From Solibacteraceae bacterium (GTDB taxonomy: Bacteria; Acidobacteriota; Terriglobia; Bryobacterales; Bryobacteraceae), in the NCBI GenBank assembly GCA_021324015.1, contig JAJPJX010000109.1, forward strand, positions 1-64,000: 64,000 bases of DNA, in the 5' to 3' direction. Under the pieces are notes generated by a model that made no database searches, was not told the origin of the DNA, and was given only the letters and a program-made list of their open reading frames with translations. The position numbers were made by a program, and so were the translations under genes. This document shows positions 36,677 to 56,094 of the stretch, piece by piece; within the stretch, counting starts at the first letter, position 1; every line of letters starts with the position of its first letter.

Positions 36677-37018
36677 TCAGCCGGTGCAGTCGATCGAGTT
36701 CGGAGGTTGACGGTCGCCGCCGACCTGCTGGAGCCAGCGGACTTCCCGTTTGCGTTCGCTCCACTCGGCTCGCAAGGACGCCCGATGAATGGCCAGACGC
36801 AGGCAAGCAGCCCCGCCTTTGGCACAGGCGCTCTCCAGCCTTGCGCACAAGCCTGGCGGCAGAGCCCCCCGGCCGAGTTCCGCTTGCAACACGGCGATGA
36901 CGCGAGCGCGCGTATCCAGGGCGTCCTGTATAGCCGGGGTATCCCCGAGGTCGACCGCCAACAGACGGGCGGTCGCCCGTTCCAGATCCGCGATGAGGTT
37001 CTCCCAGTCCGTGGCCAC
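36677..37018 (-). CDS. Small helical FliT/FlgN-like chaperone, probable
   Basis: 113 residues of mostly charged amphipathic helices (WENLIADLERATARLLAVDLGDTPAIQDALDTRARVIAVLQAEL, then LRAEWSERKREVRWLQQV). Placed 3 bp after fliD, as fliT usually is in other bacteria. No sequence motif proves the family; FliT binds FliD as chaperone and often has low similarity. It could equally be an FlgN-type chaperone for other late substrates. Confidence 0.55.
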   Translation of the reverse strand: MATDWENLIADLERATARLLAVDLGDTPAIQDALDTRARVIAVLQAELGRGALPPGLCARLESACAKGGAACLRLAIHRASLRAEWSERKREVRWLQQVGGDRQPPNSIDCTG

Positions 37019-38407: not shown

Positions 38408-38428
38408 ACGATTCAATCCTCTCTGTTC

Positions 38429-38455
38429 TCATCGGCCGGTTGCCGAGTTCCTCTC
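38429..38455 (-). promoter_or_regulatory. Possible sigma-28 promoter of fliD
   Basis: On the minus strand GCCGATGA (38436-38429) matches the FliA -10 octamer GCCGATAA at 7 of 8 positions and lies 21 bp before the fliD ATG. The -35 position 15 bp upstream reads GAGA rather than TAAA, so the site is weak on that side. Supported by recurrence of the same octamer before flgM, cheY and others. Confidence 0.45.
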
Positions 38456-39385: not shown

Positions 39386-40219
39386 TTATCCTGCGGCGCG
39401 CGCTTCGACGGGCTTCGGGGTGCGCGCCGACTTGTGGTCTCCGGCAGCGGGGGCCGGACCGTAGCCCTCCAGCTTGAGGCGAATCAGCTTCGGATTCAGC
39501 CCCTCCACGATACCCACCACGCCTTCGAGCGAAAGTTCCCGCATCTGAACTTCCTGATGCAGCCGGGCTCTTAGCTTGTTGGCGGCCGGCAGGAAGAACA
39601 GGTTGGCGGAGCCCACCCCGTAGACCGTAGCCACAAACGCCACCGCGATACCGCGGCCTACTTCCTCGATATTCGAGAGGTTCTTCATTACCTGCATCAG
39701 CCCCAGGACCGCGCCAATGATCCCGATGGTCGGGGCATAGCCCCCGGCCGATTCGAAAACCTTCGCTTCAGCCTCGCCGCGCTGCTCGATCAGGCCGATC
39801 TCCAGTTCCATCATGCGGCGGAGCTGTTGCAGGTCGGTGCCGTCCACCGCCAGGTTGAGAGCCTTGCGCAGGAAGGGATCCCCAATCGCTTCCGCGTCCT
39901 GTTCCAGGGAAACAATACCCTCCCGGCGCGCCTTGGTCGCGAACGCCAGGATGTTCTCGATGGCGCCCTCCGGATCCATGGCTTTCTCCAGGAAGACCTG
40001 CGGCAGGCGGCCGATGGCGCGCTTCAGGGTTTTCGGAGGGGTCGTCACCATCACGGCGCCGATAGTGCCCCCGAGCACAATCATGGCAGCGGTCACCTGT
40101 TGGACATCCTGAATCCGGCCACCCTCCAGGATCAGGCCGCCCAAAATGCCCCCGACTGCCAGCACCAGCCCGGCCACGCTTGCCAAGTCAGGTCGGCTGC
40201 CAATGCCTCTCGCGCTCAT
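39386..40219 (-). CDS. motA: Flagellar stator protein MotA
   Basis: 277 residues from the ATG at 40219; upstream extension is shadow sequence. Transmembrane helices near 13-33 (LASVAGLVLAVGGILGGLIL), 36-55, then two in the middle (APTIGIIGAVLGLMQVMKNL and IAVAFVATVYGVGSANLFFLPAANKLR). The cytoplasmic loop between helices 2 and 3 contains charged residues that contact FliG. It is PomA/MotA-like overall. Transcribed before motB and after flbD. Confidence 0.93.
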   Translation of the reverse strand: MSARGIGSRPDLASVAGLVLAVGGILGGLILEGGRIQDVQQVTAAMIVLGGTIGAVMVTTPPKTLKRAIGRLPQVFLEKAMDPEGAIENILAFATKARREGIVSLEQDAEAIGDPFLRKALNLAVDGTDLQQLRRMMELEIGLIEQRGEAEAKVFESAGGYAPTIGIIGAVLGLMQVMKNLSNIEEVGRGIAVAFVATVYGVGSANLFFLPAANKLRARLHQEVQMRELSLEGVVGIVEGLNPKLIRLKLEGYGPAPAAGDHKSARTPKPVEARAAG

Positions 40220-40235
40220 GGTCGGCCGCGGGCCC

Positions 40236-40496
40236 TTACGCTGAGGGACCCGTGCTCCTTTCGGCCGTCTGGGGAGCCTCTTGCACCTCCGCGTGGGCCA
40301 GCACCGCGCACAGGCCACGGAAGACCGCCCTCCGGAAGCTGATGATGCGGGCCACCACTTCATCGACCGATTCCCGCACCATGATTTTCTCGTCGCTCGT
40401 CAGGGTGATGACCGTGTCCGGGGTCGCCTCAATGTGCTGGATCAGGTCCGAGTTCAGCACCATCGGCAGATGGTTGAGCCGGGTCAGGTGGATCAT
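40236..40496 (-). CDS. flbD: FlbD family flagellar protein
   Basis: 86 residues. The small FlbD signature MIHLTRLNHLPMVLNSDLIQHIEATPDTVITLTSDEKIMVRESVDEVVARI is typical (ILTRLNG-type start, LNP/LNSDLI, DTVITL..). The short FlbD family is named from spirochaete and Bacillus flagellar operons and commonly precedes motA. It is distinct from the Caulobacter transcription activator of the same name. Biochemical role unclear. Followed 16 bp later by motA. Confidence 0.9.
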   Translation of the reverse strand: MIHLTRLNHLPMVLNSDLIQHIEATPDTVITLTSDEKIMVRESVDEVVARIISFRRAVFRGLCAVLAHAEVQEAPQTAERSTGPSA

Positions 40497-40545
40497 AATC
40501 CCCGAAGTACATATCGTCCAGAACCGGGGAACCGTTCGCTTAGGG

Positions 40546-40572
40546 GAAACAAACCGCGTACCCTGCCGATGA
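40546..40572 (+). promoter_or_regulatory. Sigma-28-like promoter before plus-strand gene
   Basis: Plus-strand GAAA (40546-40549), 15 bp, GCCGATGA (40565-40572): one mismatch from TAAA and one from GCCGATAA with consensus spacing. It ends 16 bp before the ATG at 40589 and the AGGAG Shine-Dalgarno lies in between, so the leader would be about 10 bases. Confidence 0.55.
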
Positions 40573-40588
40573 GACGGGTAGGAGCCAC

Positions 40589-40990
40589 ATGCCAGATCCG
40601 TCAGCCACTTCCGACGCCGCCCGTTGGGCCAGCTTCATTCTGATTGCCTGGAACACCGGGGACCTCCACCAATTGGAGAGCGCCCTCGAGCGGGCGGCCG
40701 ATTCCTGCGCCCGGCCCGCCAGCACTACCCTCGAAACCGAGCGTCGGGAGCTTCTGGCAGGGGTAGCCGACCGGCTGCGGGATGATCTTGGCCCGAAGTC
40801 CGGCCCTCTCACCGGAACCGAGGATTCCCAGCAAGTTTGCCTGAATCTTTTGCAGCACCTCGCGGTCCGCCGCCACCCAAACCCCAGCTTCCCCCGGCCT
40901 CAGACACCGGGCAGGCACCACCGGTGCGGCCGTCAGCCCTCCGGAGGCAGGCCCGGTTTGCTGCCTGCCTCGATGTGTTCCTCGATCTGA
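40589..40990 (+). CDS. Uncharacterised small protein in flagellar locus, opposite strand
   Basis: 133 residues, not recognised. It has a proper Shine-Dalgarno (AGGAG, about 5 bases before ATG), a sigma-28-like promoter just upstream and alternating high third-position GC over its first ~95 codons. Its first part is helical (ILIAWNTGDLHQLESALERAAD, ETERRELLAGVADRLRDDLG); the last ~35 residues are Pro/Arg/Gly-rich and may be fortuitous read-through since they overlap the fliM 3' end by 58 bp on the other strand. If real, it would be a late, FliA-controlled gene lying between flbD and fliM. Could instead be a non-coding spacer with chance frame. Confidence 0.5.
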   Translation: MPDPSATSDAARWASFILIAWNTGDLHQLESALERAADSCARPASTTLETERRELLAGVADRLRDDLGPKSGPLTGTEDSQQVCLNLLQHLAVRRHPNPSFPRPQTPGRHHRCGRQPSGGRPGLLPASMCSSI

Positions 40991-41916
40991 AACCCCAGCT
41001 TGTGGTTGTTCGCCACAATCCGGCCTTTGAACTTGGGCCGCCCGTTGACTGTCCCCTCCAATTGTCCGCCGGCGGCTGAGTCGAAGGAGACGACATCGCC
41101 TGGCTTCAGTTCGGTGAGTTGCTGCACCCCGACGGCCCCCTGGAGCCGGGCGTCGAAATGCAGCCTCGCCTGTCGCAGCAGGCGGAGTATCCGCGCTTGC
41201 GTGGCACCGCCCTGTTCCAGCTTGCGCGCGGTCCACTGCTGATCGAATTTCTGGCGCATCATCTTAATGGTGATGGAGGGGATCGCCAGATTCATGGTGC
41301 CAACGGTCTCGCCGATGTGCAGTTCGATGCCGATCGCCACCACTGCCTCGCTGGGCGTAATGATTTGCAGGAATTGCGGCTCGGTCTCGAGGGACTCAAT
41401 CTGAAATTCGATAGTGGCAATGGCCTTCCAGGTCTCAGCAAGCTCATGCACGATGATCCGAAACAAACGGTCCAGCAGGTTCTGCTCGATTTCGGTGACT
41501 TCGCGCTGGATGGCCGCCGGGGACTTGGCTTTTCCGCCAAGCAGCAGTTCCAGAATGGAAAAAACCAGGGGCGGATTCAGCTCCAGCACCGCATTCCCAT
41601 GGTACGGCCGTAGGCTGAGCGAGACCATGCAGGTGGGTGACGGAAGGGCTTCCAGGAATTCGGCGTAGGGTAACTGCTCGACGGTCACCAGATTCCCCGA
41701 AAGATACGAGCGCAGATAGGCCGAAAGGTTGGAGATCAGGTTGCGCACGAAAGTCTCGTGCAGGAAGTGGATGGTGCGTAGCTGCGACTTGGCGATCCGG
41801 TCGGCCCGCTTGAAATCGAAAGGGACTGCCCGGCTGCTCCCCCCTTTGGACCCGGTCTGCACCTGCAGGTTCTGAAAGACCGCGTCAATCTCCTGTTGCG
41901 ATAACTGGCGGTTCAA
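40933..41916 (-). CDS. fliM: Flagellar motor switch protein FliM
   Basis: 327 residues. The N-terminal CheY-binding motif LSQQEIDAVF matches LSQxEIDALL-type peptides. Middle CheC-like domain (NLLDRLFRIIVHELAETWKAI) and C-terminal SpoA domain with GRPKFKGRIVANNHKLGFQIEEHI. It receives phospho-CheY to switch motor rotation. Its C-terminus overlaps a plus-strand frame. Precedes no fliN directly: the two fliN genes lie 7 and 14 kb away in the locus. Confidence 0.95.
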   Translation of the reverse strand: MNRQLSQQEIDAVFQNLQVQTGSKGGSSRAVPFDFKRADRIAKSQLRTIHFLHETFVRNLISNLSAYLRSYLSGNLVTVEQLPYAEFLEALPSPTCMVSLSLRPYHGNAVLELNPPLVFSILELLLGGKAKSPAAIQREVTEIEQNLLDRLFRIIVHELAETWKAIATIEFQIESLETEPQFLQIITPSEAVVAIGIELHIGETVGTMNLAIPSITIKMMRQKFDQQWTARKLEQGGATQARILRLLRQARLHFDARLQGAVGVQQLTELKPGDVVSFDSAAGGQLEGTVNGRPKFKGRIVANNHKLGFQIEEHIEAGSKPGLPPEG

Positions 41917-45381: not shown

Positions 45382-45759
45382 TCATCCTGCCAGAGAGAGT
45401 CGGTAACTTATGGGGAAATCCGCAGCGATACCCCGGGGGGTATACCCCGCGCCCAGGCTAGACCGGAGGCCGCCCCAGCCCAGGTAAAAAGAGGCCGCGG
45501 CATCCAGCAGTGAACGCAATTGCACCAAATCCCGCCGTACGCTGGCGATCGCCAGGCGCCGCTCCTGGAGGTTTTGCGGACCGGCGGCGGCCCAGGTGCC
45601 AGGCACCGCCTGGAGTAAGCCGGCGGCTTCTTCCAACAGGGCCCTGCCGCTTTCCAGATGCCGGGCATCGGGCTGCACCAGATGCAGGCGTGCCCTACAT
45701 AGGCAGTCCTGCACGGCCGCCAGGGGTGCGTTGGACGCTGTTTGACGCTGGCCGGCCAT
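45382..45759 (-). CDS. flgN: FlgN-like flagellar export chaperone
   Basis: 125 residues from the ATG at 45759; the longer frame overlaps flgM. Helical, with LLEEAAGLLQAVPGTWAAAGPQNLQERRLAIASVRRDLVQLRSLLDAAASFYLGW. Placed between flgM and flgK, which is the usual flgM-flgN-flgK order, so function as chaperone of FlgK/FlgL is likely. Sequence similarity alone is weak. The last ~25 residues (RSSLGAGYTPRGIAADFPISYRLSLAG) look unlike a helical chaperone. Confidence 0.7.
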   Translation of the reverse strand: MAGQRQTASNAPLAAVQDCLCRARLHLVQPDARHLESGRALLEEAAGLLQAVPGTWAAAGPQNLQERRLAIASVRRDLVQLRSLLDAAASFYLGWGGLRSSLGAGYTPRGIAADFPISYRLSLAG

Positions 45760-45761
45760 GT

Positions 45762-46091
45762 TTACTGGATCTTCGCTCCCGCCCCGTTGGCTACCCATTC
45801 CGCCACAATGCGTTGGCTCAACGGGCCGGGCTCTACCTGATAGCGGCCCTCGGCGTACAGCCTCGCGAGATCCTGCACCCGGCTGGCACGTTCCGCCGAG
45901 TGAGCCCCCTCCACTTGCACAATCCGGCCCGCCAGGGACGAAAGCTCAATCTGATCCCCGCTATTCCAGGGCCGCGAGGACTGGATGGACCCGGCGCCAC
46001 CGCGTTCGGATCCCTGGGTCGCCGGGGCACGGTCTGCGCGGGCGGCAGTGGCCTCCGCGGGCAGATGGTTCTGTACTTTTGTTGGTTCCAC
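45762..46091 (-). CDS. flgM: Anti-sigma-28 factor FlgM
   Basis: 109 residues from a GTG at 46091. C-terminal RIVQVEGAHSAERASRVQDLARLYAEGRYQVEPGPLSQRIVAEWV carries the FlgM sigma-binding helices. The N-terminal half is disordered and Gly/Ser/Ala-rich, as needed for export. Binds FliA until the hook is complete, then is secreted. A sigma-28 -10 octamer GCCGATAA 46 bp upstream suggests autogenous sigma-28 control. Two bp before the flgN-like gene. Confidence 0.9.
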   Translation of the reverse strand: MEPTKVQNHLPAEATAARADRAPATQGSERGGAGSIQSSRPWNSGDQIELSSLAGRIVQVEGAHSAERASRVQDLARLYAEGRYQVEPGPLSQRIVAEWVANGAGAKIQ

Positions 46092-46136
46092 TGGAAACCT
46101 GCTCTCCGGGAAGCCTCGCGGTCTTCCTCAGGGTTC

Positions 46137-46164
46137 TTATCGGCAGCCAGGGACCATCGGACTA
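46137..46164 (-). promoter_or_regulatory. Sigma-28-like promoter of flgM
   Basis: Minus strand GCCGATAA (46144-46137), an exact match to the FliA -10 consensus, with TAGT (46164-46161) 16 bp upstream as an imperfect -35. It sits about 45 bp before the flgM GTG. It lies back to back with the plus-strand octamer before the sigma-54 regulator. Confidence 0.6.
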
Positions 46165-48117: not shown

Positions 48118-48498
48118 CTACTCCTCCGCTCCGCCGGTTCCCACGGTCTCCGCTCCCGCCGGATGCCTGGCTGGGCCGAGCGTGTCCAAAGCCCGCGCGG
48201 ACTGGGAGGCAACCAACTGCTGCACGCGAACTCCGTAGTTTCCGTTGACCACCACTACCTCGCCGCGGGCCACCACGCGATCATTCACCACGATGTCCAC
48301 CGGGTCGCCCACCGACCGGTTTAGCTCGATGATGGACCCCGTGGTCAACCGCAACACATCCTGCAGCGGCAGCTCGGCCTGGCCGAGCGAAATGCTGACC
48401 GGCAGATCCATGTCCAATAGCCGCCACAACGTCGGTGAAAACGCTCCTTCGCTCGTTCGTTCCGCCGCGGGTTGTCCCAAGACCTGCGTTTCATTCAT
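48118..48498 (-). CDS. fliN: Flagellar motor switch protein FliN (first copy)
   Basis: 126 residues. The SpoA/FliN domain is DMDLPVSISLGQAELPLQDVLRLTTGSIIELNRSVGDPVDIVVNDRVVARGEVVVVNGNYGVRVQQLV, complete. The first 28 and last 25 residues are extensions poor in structure. C-ring lower part with FliM. A second, 84-residue FliN-like gene lies at 55840-56094. Transcribed after fliA. Confidence 0.92.
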   Translation of the reverse strand: MNETQVLGQPAAERTSEGAFSPTLWRLLDMDLPVSISLGQAELPLQDVLRLTTGSIIELNRSVGDPVDIVVNDRVVARGEVVVVNGNYGVRVQQLVASQSARALDTLGPARHPAGAETVGTGGAEE

Positions 48499-48557: not shown

Positions 48558-49331
48558 TCAGACGTACGTGCCGGCGGGCCGATCCTCCCCCACGGAGGCC
48601 TCGGCGGGCAGACTCCAGCGCCTCTCCAGATAGCTACGCAGGCGCAGGACTGCCTGGGTCTTCAATTGCGCGACACGCGAAAGCGGGAGGTCCATCACCT
48701 GCGTGATTTCCCGCAGGCTGAGATCTTCCTGGTAATAGAGGCTAAGCACAGTCTGTTCCACCTGCGGAATGCCGCGGATGGCCTCGGCCAGCAGGCGCTC
48801 GAGTTCGGAGCGCTCCAGCAGGCGTGCGGGAGATTTCTCCTCGCTGTCGGAGATAAACTGCAACAACTCCTGTCCCTGCTCCCCGTACTCCAGACTCTCC
48901 AGATCCAATCCCTGCGCCTCACCGAGCCATCTCTGATACTCAGCGAGAGGAATGCCCAGTTCCCCGGCAATCTCCTCCTCGGTGGGCTCCCGGTGGTGGC
49001 GCTGGCCGGCGGCCAGCATAGCAGCCTCGATCTGCCGCGCCTGTTTGCGGCGGGCGCGGGGCGCCCAATCCAGATCGCGCAAGCTGTCCAGAATCGCGCC
49101 GCGAATCTTGTGCTCGGCGTACGTCTTTAGTTTGACGTTGCGCTGTGGGTCGAAATGGTCGACGGCAGCGATCAAGCCCACGATTCCCGTCGAGATTAAG
49201 TCCTCGAGGCTAACTGTTTCAGGCAGGCGCGCATGAATACGCCTGGCGATCAGCCGCACCTGGGGAAGATGCTCCAGGATCAGGCGCTCCCGTTCCGTCG
49301 CTCCCATTCGTTCGCTCTGATAGGAATACAT
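48558..49331 (-). CDS. fliA: RNA polymerase sigma factor FliA (sigma-28)
   Basis: 257 residues from the ATG at 49331 with AAGGGAAGGG upstream; a longer frame with no family similarity is dropped. Region 2 (EHLPQVRLIARRIHARLPETVSLEDLISTGIVGLIAAVDHFDPQRNVKLKTYAEHKIRGAILD), region 3 and region 4 (IPQVEQTVLSLYYQEDLSLREITQVMDLPLSRVAQLKTQAVLRLR) are all present. Drives late flagellar genes from GCCGATAA-type promoters, consistent with the octamers found in this window. Gene follows flhF; flhG is absent between them. Confidence 0.96.
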   Translation of the reverse strand: MYSYQSERMGATERERLILEHLPQVRLIARRIHARLPETVSLEDLISTGIVGLIAAVDHFDPQRNVKLKTYAEHKIRGAILDSLRDLDWAPRARRKQARQIEAAMLAAGQRHHREPTEEEIAGELGIPLAEYQRWLGEAQGLDLESLEYGEQGQELLQFISDSEEKSPARLLERSELERLLAEAIRGIPQVEQTVLSLYYQEDLSLREITQVMDLPLSRVAQLKTQAVLRLRSYLERRWSLPAEASVGEDRPAGTYV

Positions 49332-49392
49332 GTTGCCCTTCCCTTGTCGCTGCCGAGGCGCCCCCCGGCAGGCCCCGCGCAACGCCCAGGAT

Positions 49393-55839: not shown

Positions 55840-56094
55840 TCAGCTACGGTCTTCCAGGTTGGTGATGCGGACGGCCATGGTGTTGTCCACGATCAGGATC
55901 TCTCCCGCACCAATCCTCACGCCGGCCACGTAAATGTCCACGTTCTCGCCCGCTGACCTTTTCATGACAATCAAGCTGCCCACCTTCCAATCCAGAATTT
56001 CGCTGACGGGCATCGCGCGCCGGTCCACTTCCACCTCCAGGCGAAGCGGCACGTCCGCCAGCCGGCTGATCTGTTCCAAAGCCTCCATCGGCAC
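55840..56094 (-). CDS. Second FliN-like SpoA-domain protein
   Basis: 84 residues, the core SpoA/FliN domain alone (DVPLRLEVEVDRRAMPVSEILDWKVGSLIVMKRSAGENVDIYVAGVRIGAGEILIVDNTMAVRITNL). The 126-residue FliN at 48118 has extensions; this one has none. In many flagellar operons FliN stands before fliO, as here, so this could be the ancestral-position copy. Possible duplicate switch subunit, FliM/FliN hybrid partner or export-apparatus HrcQ-like component. Confidence 0.85.
   Translation of the reverse strand: MPMEALEQISRLADVPLRLEVEVDRRAMPVSEILDWKVGSLIVMKRSAGENVDIYVAGVRIGAGEILIVDNTMAVRITNLEDRS

Follow-up and report, generated by a model that had tools for sequence, protein, structure and literature searches.

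A conserved small-protein gene with a sigma-28-type promoter box in the flagellar clusters of Bryobacterales

Introduction

The flagellar export chaperones FliS, FliT, and FlgN are small, helical proteins that belong to a late flagellar context. FlgM is built from a disordered N-terminus and a two-helix hairpin. The Fed proteins of Campylobacter are encoded by genes of the sigma-28 regulon that have no direct part in assembling the flagellum (PMC6196472). SwrD is reported to increase motor power (Hall 2018, as cited in PMC9195833).

The window analyzed here, a stretch of 64,000 nucleotides from a Solibacteraceae bacterium, contains a flagellar cluster in which a small gene stands between flbD and fliM. 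Titles and abstract openings, mainly of open-access papers, yielded no literature on the flagella of this family (Bryobacteraceae), and a search by title, likewise mainly open-access, yielded none on the gene itself.

A conserved gene between flbD and fliM

The elements of the locus are as follows:

40589-40990, plus strand: open reading frame of the new gene, ATG start, 133 amino acids
40589-40873, plus strand: conserved part of the new gene, residues 1-95, with four predicted helices and the signature
40579-40585, plus strand: Shine-Dalgarno-like TAGGAGC, read from the sequence
40236-40496, minus strand: flbD, divergent neighbour and head of flbD-motA-motB (Pfam FlbD, PF06289, 3.5e-27); we take FlbD to be of the SwrD family
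40933-41916, minus strand: fliM, convergent neighbour (Pfam FliM, PF02154, 5.3e-54)
40933-40990: overlap of the new-gene tail with the fliM 3′ end, 58 bp

A preliminary description of this DNA had proposed a plus-strand gene between flbD and fliM, preceded by a Shine-Dalgarno sequence and overlapping fliM by 58 bp, and each of these elements is present: both neighbours were identified by Pfam, the AGGAG stops 4 nt short of the ATG, and the overlap starts at residue 115. In the surrounding cluster, MotA, FlbD, FliM, the FliA-type sigma factor, CheX, a CheY-type receiver, and FliP were confirmed by Pfam, and FlgM matched its own Pfam model at 45804-45956 (minus strand); the remaining gene names in the window were assigned from sequence reading and context. 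Two separate FliN-type genes (48118-48498 and 55840-56094, minus strand; Pfam FliMN_C) are present. The longest MotA frame (39386-40363, minus strand) extends into flbD; by reading, translation probably begins at the ATG near 40219 (MSARGIGSRPDL).

A first search with the protein against 61 genomes returned weak matches, several of which adjoined flbD or fliM in other genera, and a divergent small reading frame of the same pattern was found upstream of flbD in 17 of the 30 flbD loci fetched first. An iterated profile was then applied to these loci and to 60 extra ones, which were the top of the flbD match list rather than a random sample, lower-scoring flbD places being left out. It collected 66 frames, 59 of them distinct, including one that is probably spurious (the second L110 frame) and one cut by a contig end (L053). 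Matches were obtained at 57 of 91 distinct flbD loci, with the gene divergent to flbD within 600 bp in 51 and beyond fliM in 6; no match was seen at the other 34, two of which have less than 350 bp to inspect.

A profile of the first ~95 residues, built from part of the same 150 family genomes that were later counted, matched 81 of them (E <= 0.001) in 50 of 76 genera and left 69 unmatched. The unmatched flbD loci and genomes indicate that the gene is either dispensable or too diverged to be seen there. It was found in 79 of 129 family genomes bearing flbD versus 2 of 21 without flbD (Fisher p 8e-6, uncorrected for shared ancestry). In the genome of the window, the profile gave a single significant match, the next best being at 0.085. 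An alignment of 42 rows (A1) revealed the invariant residues A14, E51, and L88, with R52 and E54 each kept in 33 rows and H90 in 36. Values of dN/dS were 0.12-0.39 in 10 of 11 same-genus pairs, with one pair saturated.

A search of 24 genomes of the order and class gave 2 matches below 1e-3 and two further ones at 0.01-0.03 inside longer frames. The sister-family genomes G044 and G049 matched the profile at 4.1e-7 and 8.3e-5, and these are the two FliS-bearing genomes among the 14 sister-family genomes searched; in another, G053, FlgM was matched and the new gene was not. A phylum-wide search matched 1 of 396 genomes (the window's own), but it scored 12 candidates per genome, and 18 of the 21 rows listed belong to one other family, so that it says little.

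Conservation of the frame in relatives had been put forward in the preliminary description as a check on the gene, and the frame is kept across genera under purifying selection. Judged from this conservation, from dN/dS, and from conservation of the promoter (see below), the reading frame is a real gene, beyond chance. The same evidence largely refutes the reading that it is a chance frame in a GC-rich intergenic stretch, or that only an RNA antisense to fliM is made here. That reading could appeal to the tail, which is unconserved and lies opposite fliM, and to the stretch from 40200 to 41200, which is without a terminator-like site, but we find it hardly credible; the chance frame as such is rejected on the family-wide profile matches, dN/dS, and the conserved promoter box.

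Promoter elements

Two promoter elements and a candidate sigma factor were located in the window:

40546-40573, plus strand: sigma-28-type promoter of the new gene, GAAA-N15-GCCGATGAG (pattern match, with the box conserved in relatives)
40511-40518, minus strand: GACGATAT, weak sigma-28-type -10 box of flbD, from the sequence
48558-49382, minus strand: FliA-type sigma factor (Pfam sigma-70 regions 2, 3, and 4), named from sequence and context

The C of the CGAT lies 22 nt from the ATG of the new gene. The N15 spacing is shared with E. coli FliA sites, for example, TAAA-N15-GTCGATAA (PMC4183435). The pattern DMAA-N15-GNCGATRAG, which was written with the 40546-40573 site known, has its sole perfect match in the 64 kb at that site (chance 0.06; 6 of 100 shuffles reach one match). 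Since the pattern was made after the site had been seen, the promoter is better supported by its conservation in relatives. In 38 of the 51 divergent loci, CGATRAG lies no more than 70 bp ahead of the conserved domain, compared with a mean of 0.72 and a maximum of 4 in 200 rounds of shuffling, and alignment of the boxes from 37 loci gave the consensus TCAA-N15-GCCGATAAG. A start codon lies 10-60 nt downstream of a CGAT[AG] box in 40 of the 51. The stretch inspected was without CGAT[AG] in 11 of the 51, several of which have a one-letter variant or offer only a very short stretch. The sigma-28-like promoter of its own that the preliminary description had assigned to the gene is thus matched by a similar box in relatives, and late (class III) timing, also suggested there, is the natural reading of a promoter of this type that recurs among them. 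We infer that sigma-28 would be used in vivo. The consensus could be used to search the order Bryobacterales for further sigma-28 genes.

On the flbD side, [CT]ATCG occurs no more than 60 bp from flbD in 50 of the 51 loci with a divergent gene (7.9 in shuffles) and in 37 of the 40 others (4.9 in shuffles), and the stricter C[TA]TATCG within the same distance in 37 of 51 and 23 of 40 (shuffles, 0.58 and 0.24). A box of this kind thus belongs to flbD-motAB itself, with or without the new gene nearby.

Over the window as a whole, the promoter pattern with one mismatch gave 3 matches versus 2.3 expected. A one-mismatch sigma-28-like site lies just upstream of fliD (38428-38455, minus strand), within this chance-level count. 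CGATRAG alone is likewise at chance level (20 found, 15.9 expected). CGATAAG at 46136-46142 (minus strand) precedes flgM (CTGCCGATAAG).

Genomic contexts of the copies

The right-hand neighbour of the 51 flbD-divergent copies is fliM in 8, flgL or flgK in 3, and cheY in 1, while 39 have no match there to a flagellar query. By reading, many of these 39 neighbours are MerR-type, VOC-like, or other genes; one MerR was checked. Further copies are divergent to motA (L160 and L166) or follow flgL (L161, L164, L170, L078, L103, and L104, with L044 added by reading the upstream sequence). The post-flgL copies mostly have looser CGAT[AG] forms, which stand without a shuffle comparison. The L164 copy stands before flagellin, and the sister-family L220 copy is divergent to flagellin with CCCGATAAG upstream; both flagellins were confirmed by Pfam. 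Copies thus adjoin flbD-motAB, follow flgL, or stand beside flagellin, so that context does not choose among a motor, a chemotaxis, and a filament role.

One reading of this linkage is that the protein is a stator or motor accessory, which would act with FlbD/SwrD, MotA, and MotB across the shared promoter region and tune motor output. The gene is divergent to flbD in 51 of 91 flbD loci and to motA in two more stretches. However, 40 of the 91 have no divergent gene, other copies follow flgL, adjoin flagellin, or sit without a detected flagellar gene, and a shared promoter class alone could account for the linkage. We hold a motor role to be a tentative reading, on the unlikely side.

Eight stretches carry a copy and no match to the flagellar proteins of the window (L158, L159, L162, L163, L165, L167, L168, and L169). 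The queries were the window's own genes; with neither a flagellin nor a chemoreceptor among them, flagellar neighbours of these copies could be missed. Four of the stretches (L158, L159, L163, and L165), 3-12 kb long and without a detected flagellar gene, keep the box just before the gene, as CGATAAG in L158 and L165 and as CGATACG in L159 and L163. The L167 copy (1.1e-7) has no box upstream. Only loose boxes, 45 and 75 bp upstream of the match, were seen for L162, which matched in three pieces (1.9e-12), and L169, which matched at 1.9e-7 with an internal stop. The L168 stretch opens at a contig end and has a box on the flbD side; it may simply be a truncated locus of the usual divergent type. 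Upstream of the G044 copy lies GCCGATGAG, and no match to the window's flagellar proteins was seen within 12 kb. PilZ-domain genes lie near two off-locus copies (L159, 499-900; L163, 7177-7515).

The four isolated copies that keep their box would fit a protein coexpressed by sigma-28 that has no role in motility, as with the Campylobacter Feds and their place in the sigma-28 regulon. Against this, a larger number of copies stand with flbD, motA, flgL, or flagellin, and the limited query set could have hidden flagellar neighbours of the isolated ones; we consider the reading quite unlikely.

The 3′ tail and fliM

The part of the gene that faces fliM belongs to its variable end:

40874-40990, plus strand: unconserved tail, residues 96-133 and the stop codon, with no counterpart seen in relatives

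Residues past the conserved domain number 0-49 in the 51 loci (median 8) and 38 in the window, where the tail has a changed codon GC pattern (second position 0.71 vs 0.54). In the 8 loci in which fliM is convergent, 7 overlap by 4-104 nt and one pair is 24 nt apart. The antisense transcript against fliM that the preliminary description had drawn from the overlap is weakened: with an unconserved tail, and with fliM convergent in only 8 of 51 divergent loci, a general antisense role is unsupported, as is a conserved one. At this particular locus, read-through antisense to fliM may occur, though with no conserved design.

Predicted fold and family searches

AlphaFold2 modeling on A1 predicted helices at residues 9-23, 26-40, 47-67, and 78-92 (pLDDT 86.5, pTM 0.78), a confident model in which the long form of the protein is a soluble four-helix bundle. 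The signature of the conserved part, E51-R52-x-E54-L-L ... L-L-x-H90-L, falls in the last two of these helices. The short form, represented by 13 relatives aligned with the window (A2), gave a poor model (mean pLDDT 65; helices 40-57 and 62-78; pLDDT below 50 over residues 1-22 and 24-29), in which the last two helices alone are kept with any confidence. The median pI of the 42 members is 5.8 (quartiles 5.1 and 8.0).

A Foldseek search returned nothing at E <= 0.001 (best 0.8). With VIA-align, designed bundles and FRB domains scored Z values as high as 8 and FliS scored 5.9-6.5, values that are common for helical bundles. Scans of the 42 members against Pfam, NCBIfam, and PHROGs revealed no shared family: the commonest Pfam match occurred in 2 of 42 at 0.14, and single-member matches reached 0.0042, 0.012, and 0.0045. 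A sequence search of the PDB gave E >= 0.1 only. Phage records gave no match, and a phage origin was rejected. Neither Pfam nor NCBIfam has a name for the protein family, and no known relative was found.

The predicted short form, a disordered N-terminus with a two-helix hairpin, recalls FlgM, and the gene has its own sigma-28 box. These features would suit a feedback regulator of late transcription, for example, a second FlgM-like anti-sigma-28 factor. However, the window already has a FlgM, and HMM-HMM comparison with FlgM gave a probability of 0.7% (against 30 aligned FlgM rows, a few of them apparently spurious), and we regard this reading as very unlikely.

Proposed role

The explanation that we prefer, and consider on balance probable, is that the gene encodes a late flagellar small helical protein that is transcribed by FliA (sigma-28) and is most likely a cytosolic adaptor. 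As part of that explanation, and with the same confidence, it would represent an undescribed small-protein family of Bryobacterales that is single-copy in this genome. Transcription by FliA would cause the product to be made late, once the hook is complete. The 95 conserved residues would fold as a soluble four-helix bundle, the last two helices being the constant part, and the protein would most likely stay in the cytosol. By analogy with the flagellar export chaperones, the E-R-x-E-L-L / L-L-x-H-L hairpin may bind a late flagellar protein or regulator. The adaptor role by itself we infer as possible rather than probable. Among the readings, we would place a chaperone- or regulator-like adaptor first, a motor accessory second, a Fed-like protein third, and a second anti-sigma factor fourth.

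A more speculative and rather unlikely form of the adaptor reading is a lineage-specific control element: a helical adaptor made under sigma-28 that, alongside FlgM, FliW, and the known chaperones, would gate or tune a late step (at the stage of flagellin, the filament junction, or the stator) and bind through its two-helix hairpin. The gene flags a part of late flagellar assembly or control that is specific to the lineage, and the conserved promoter together with the conserved short protein makes an overlooked gene directly testable.

Comparison with known systems

Like FliS, FliT, and FlgN, the new protein is small, helical, and found in a late flagellar context. FliS chains are among its structural neighbours, though no better than unrelated bundles; unlike a FliS homolog, it has no sequence match to FliS, and FliS is a separate gene in the family (21 of 25 family genomes searched, including the new-gene carriers G010, G015, and G017). 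Membership in the FliS family was rejected, since FliS was not among the Pfam matches of the 42 members and hhalign gave a probability of 0.15% (10 FliS rows); replacement of FliS was rejected because the two coexist in other genomes. In the window's own assembly (98.8% complete), neither FliS nor FliW was found, which reflects either an assembly gap or a real loss. FliW was found in 115 of 150 family genomes versus 81 of 150 for the new gene.

FliT and FlgN were not among the Pfam matches of the 42 members at E <= 0.5, a test with little power in this lineage because the window's genes in the fliT and flgN positions (36677-37018 and 45385-45798, minus strand) likewise match no Pfam family. 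Single-sequence search recovered the gene in the fliT position in only 9 of 101 family genomes; it is thus fast evolving. Comparison with the FliT-position rows by hhalign gave a probability of 0.10%, from a 10-row alignment in which at least five rows look spurious. A weak match was obtained with a FliT-position protein of G044 (E 2.2e-6 when one locus was searched, 0.083 over the genome).

The new gene resembles flgM in being a small gene behind a sigma-28-type box, and its short form is predicted to share the disordered N-terminus and two helices. In contrast, the two have no profile similarity, the long form is predicted as a bundle, and FlgM is encoded separately in the window; FlgM was also absent from the Pfam matches of the 42 members at E <= 0.5, and membership in its family was rejected. 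With the Campylobacter Feds the likeness is one of regulon: sigma-28-type coexpression outside the assembly machinery is conceivable for the new gene, whereas more of its copies lie inside flagellar loci. Set against these systems, it is a new family, but a familiar kind of protein.
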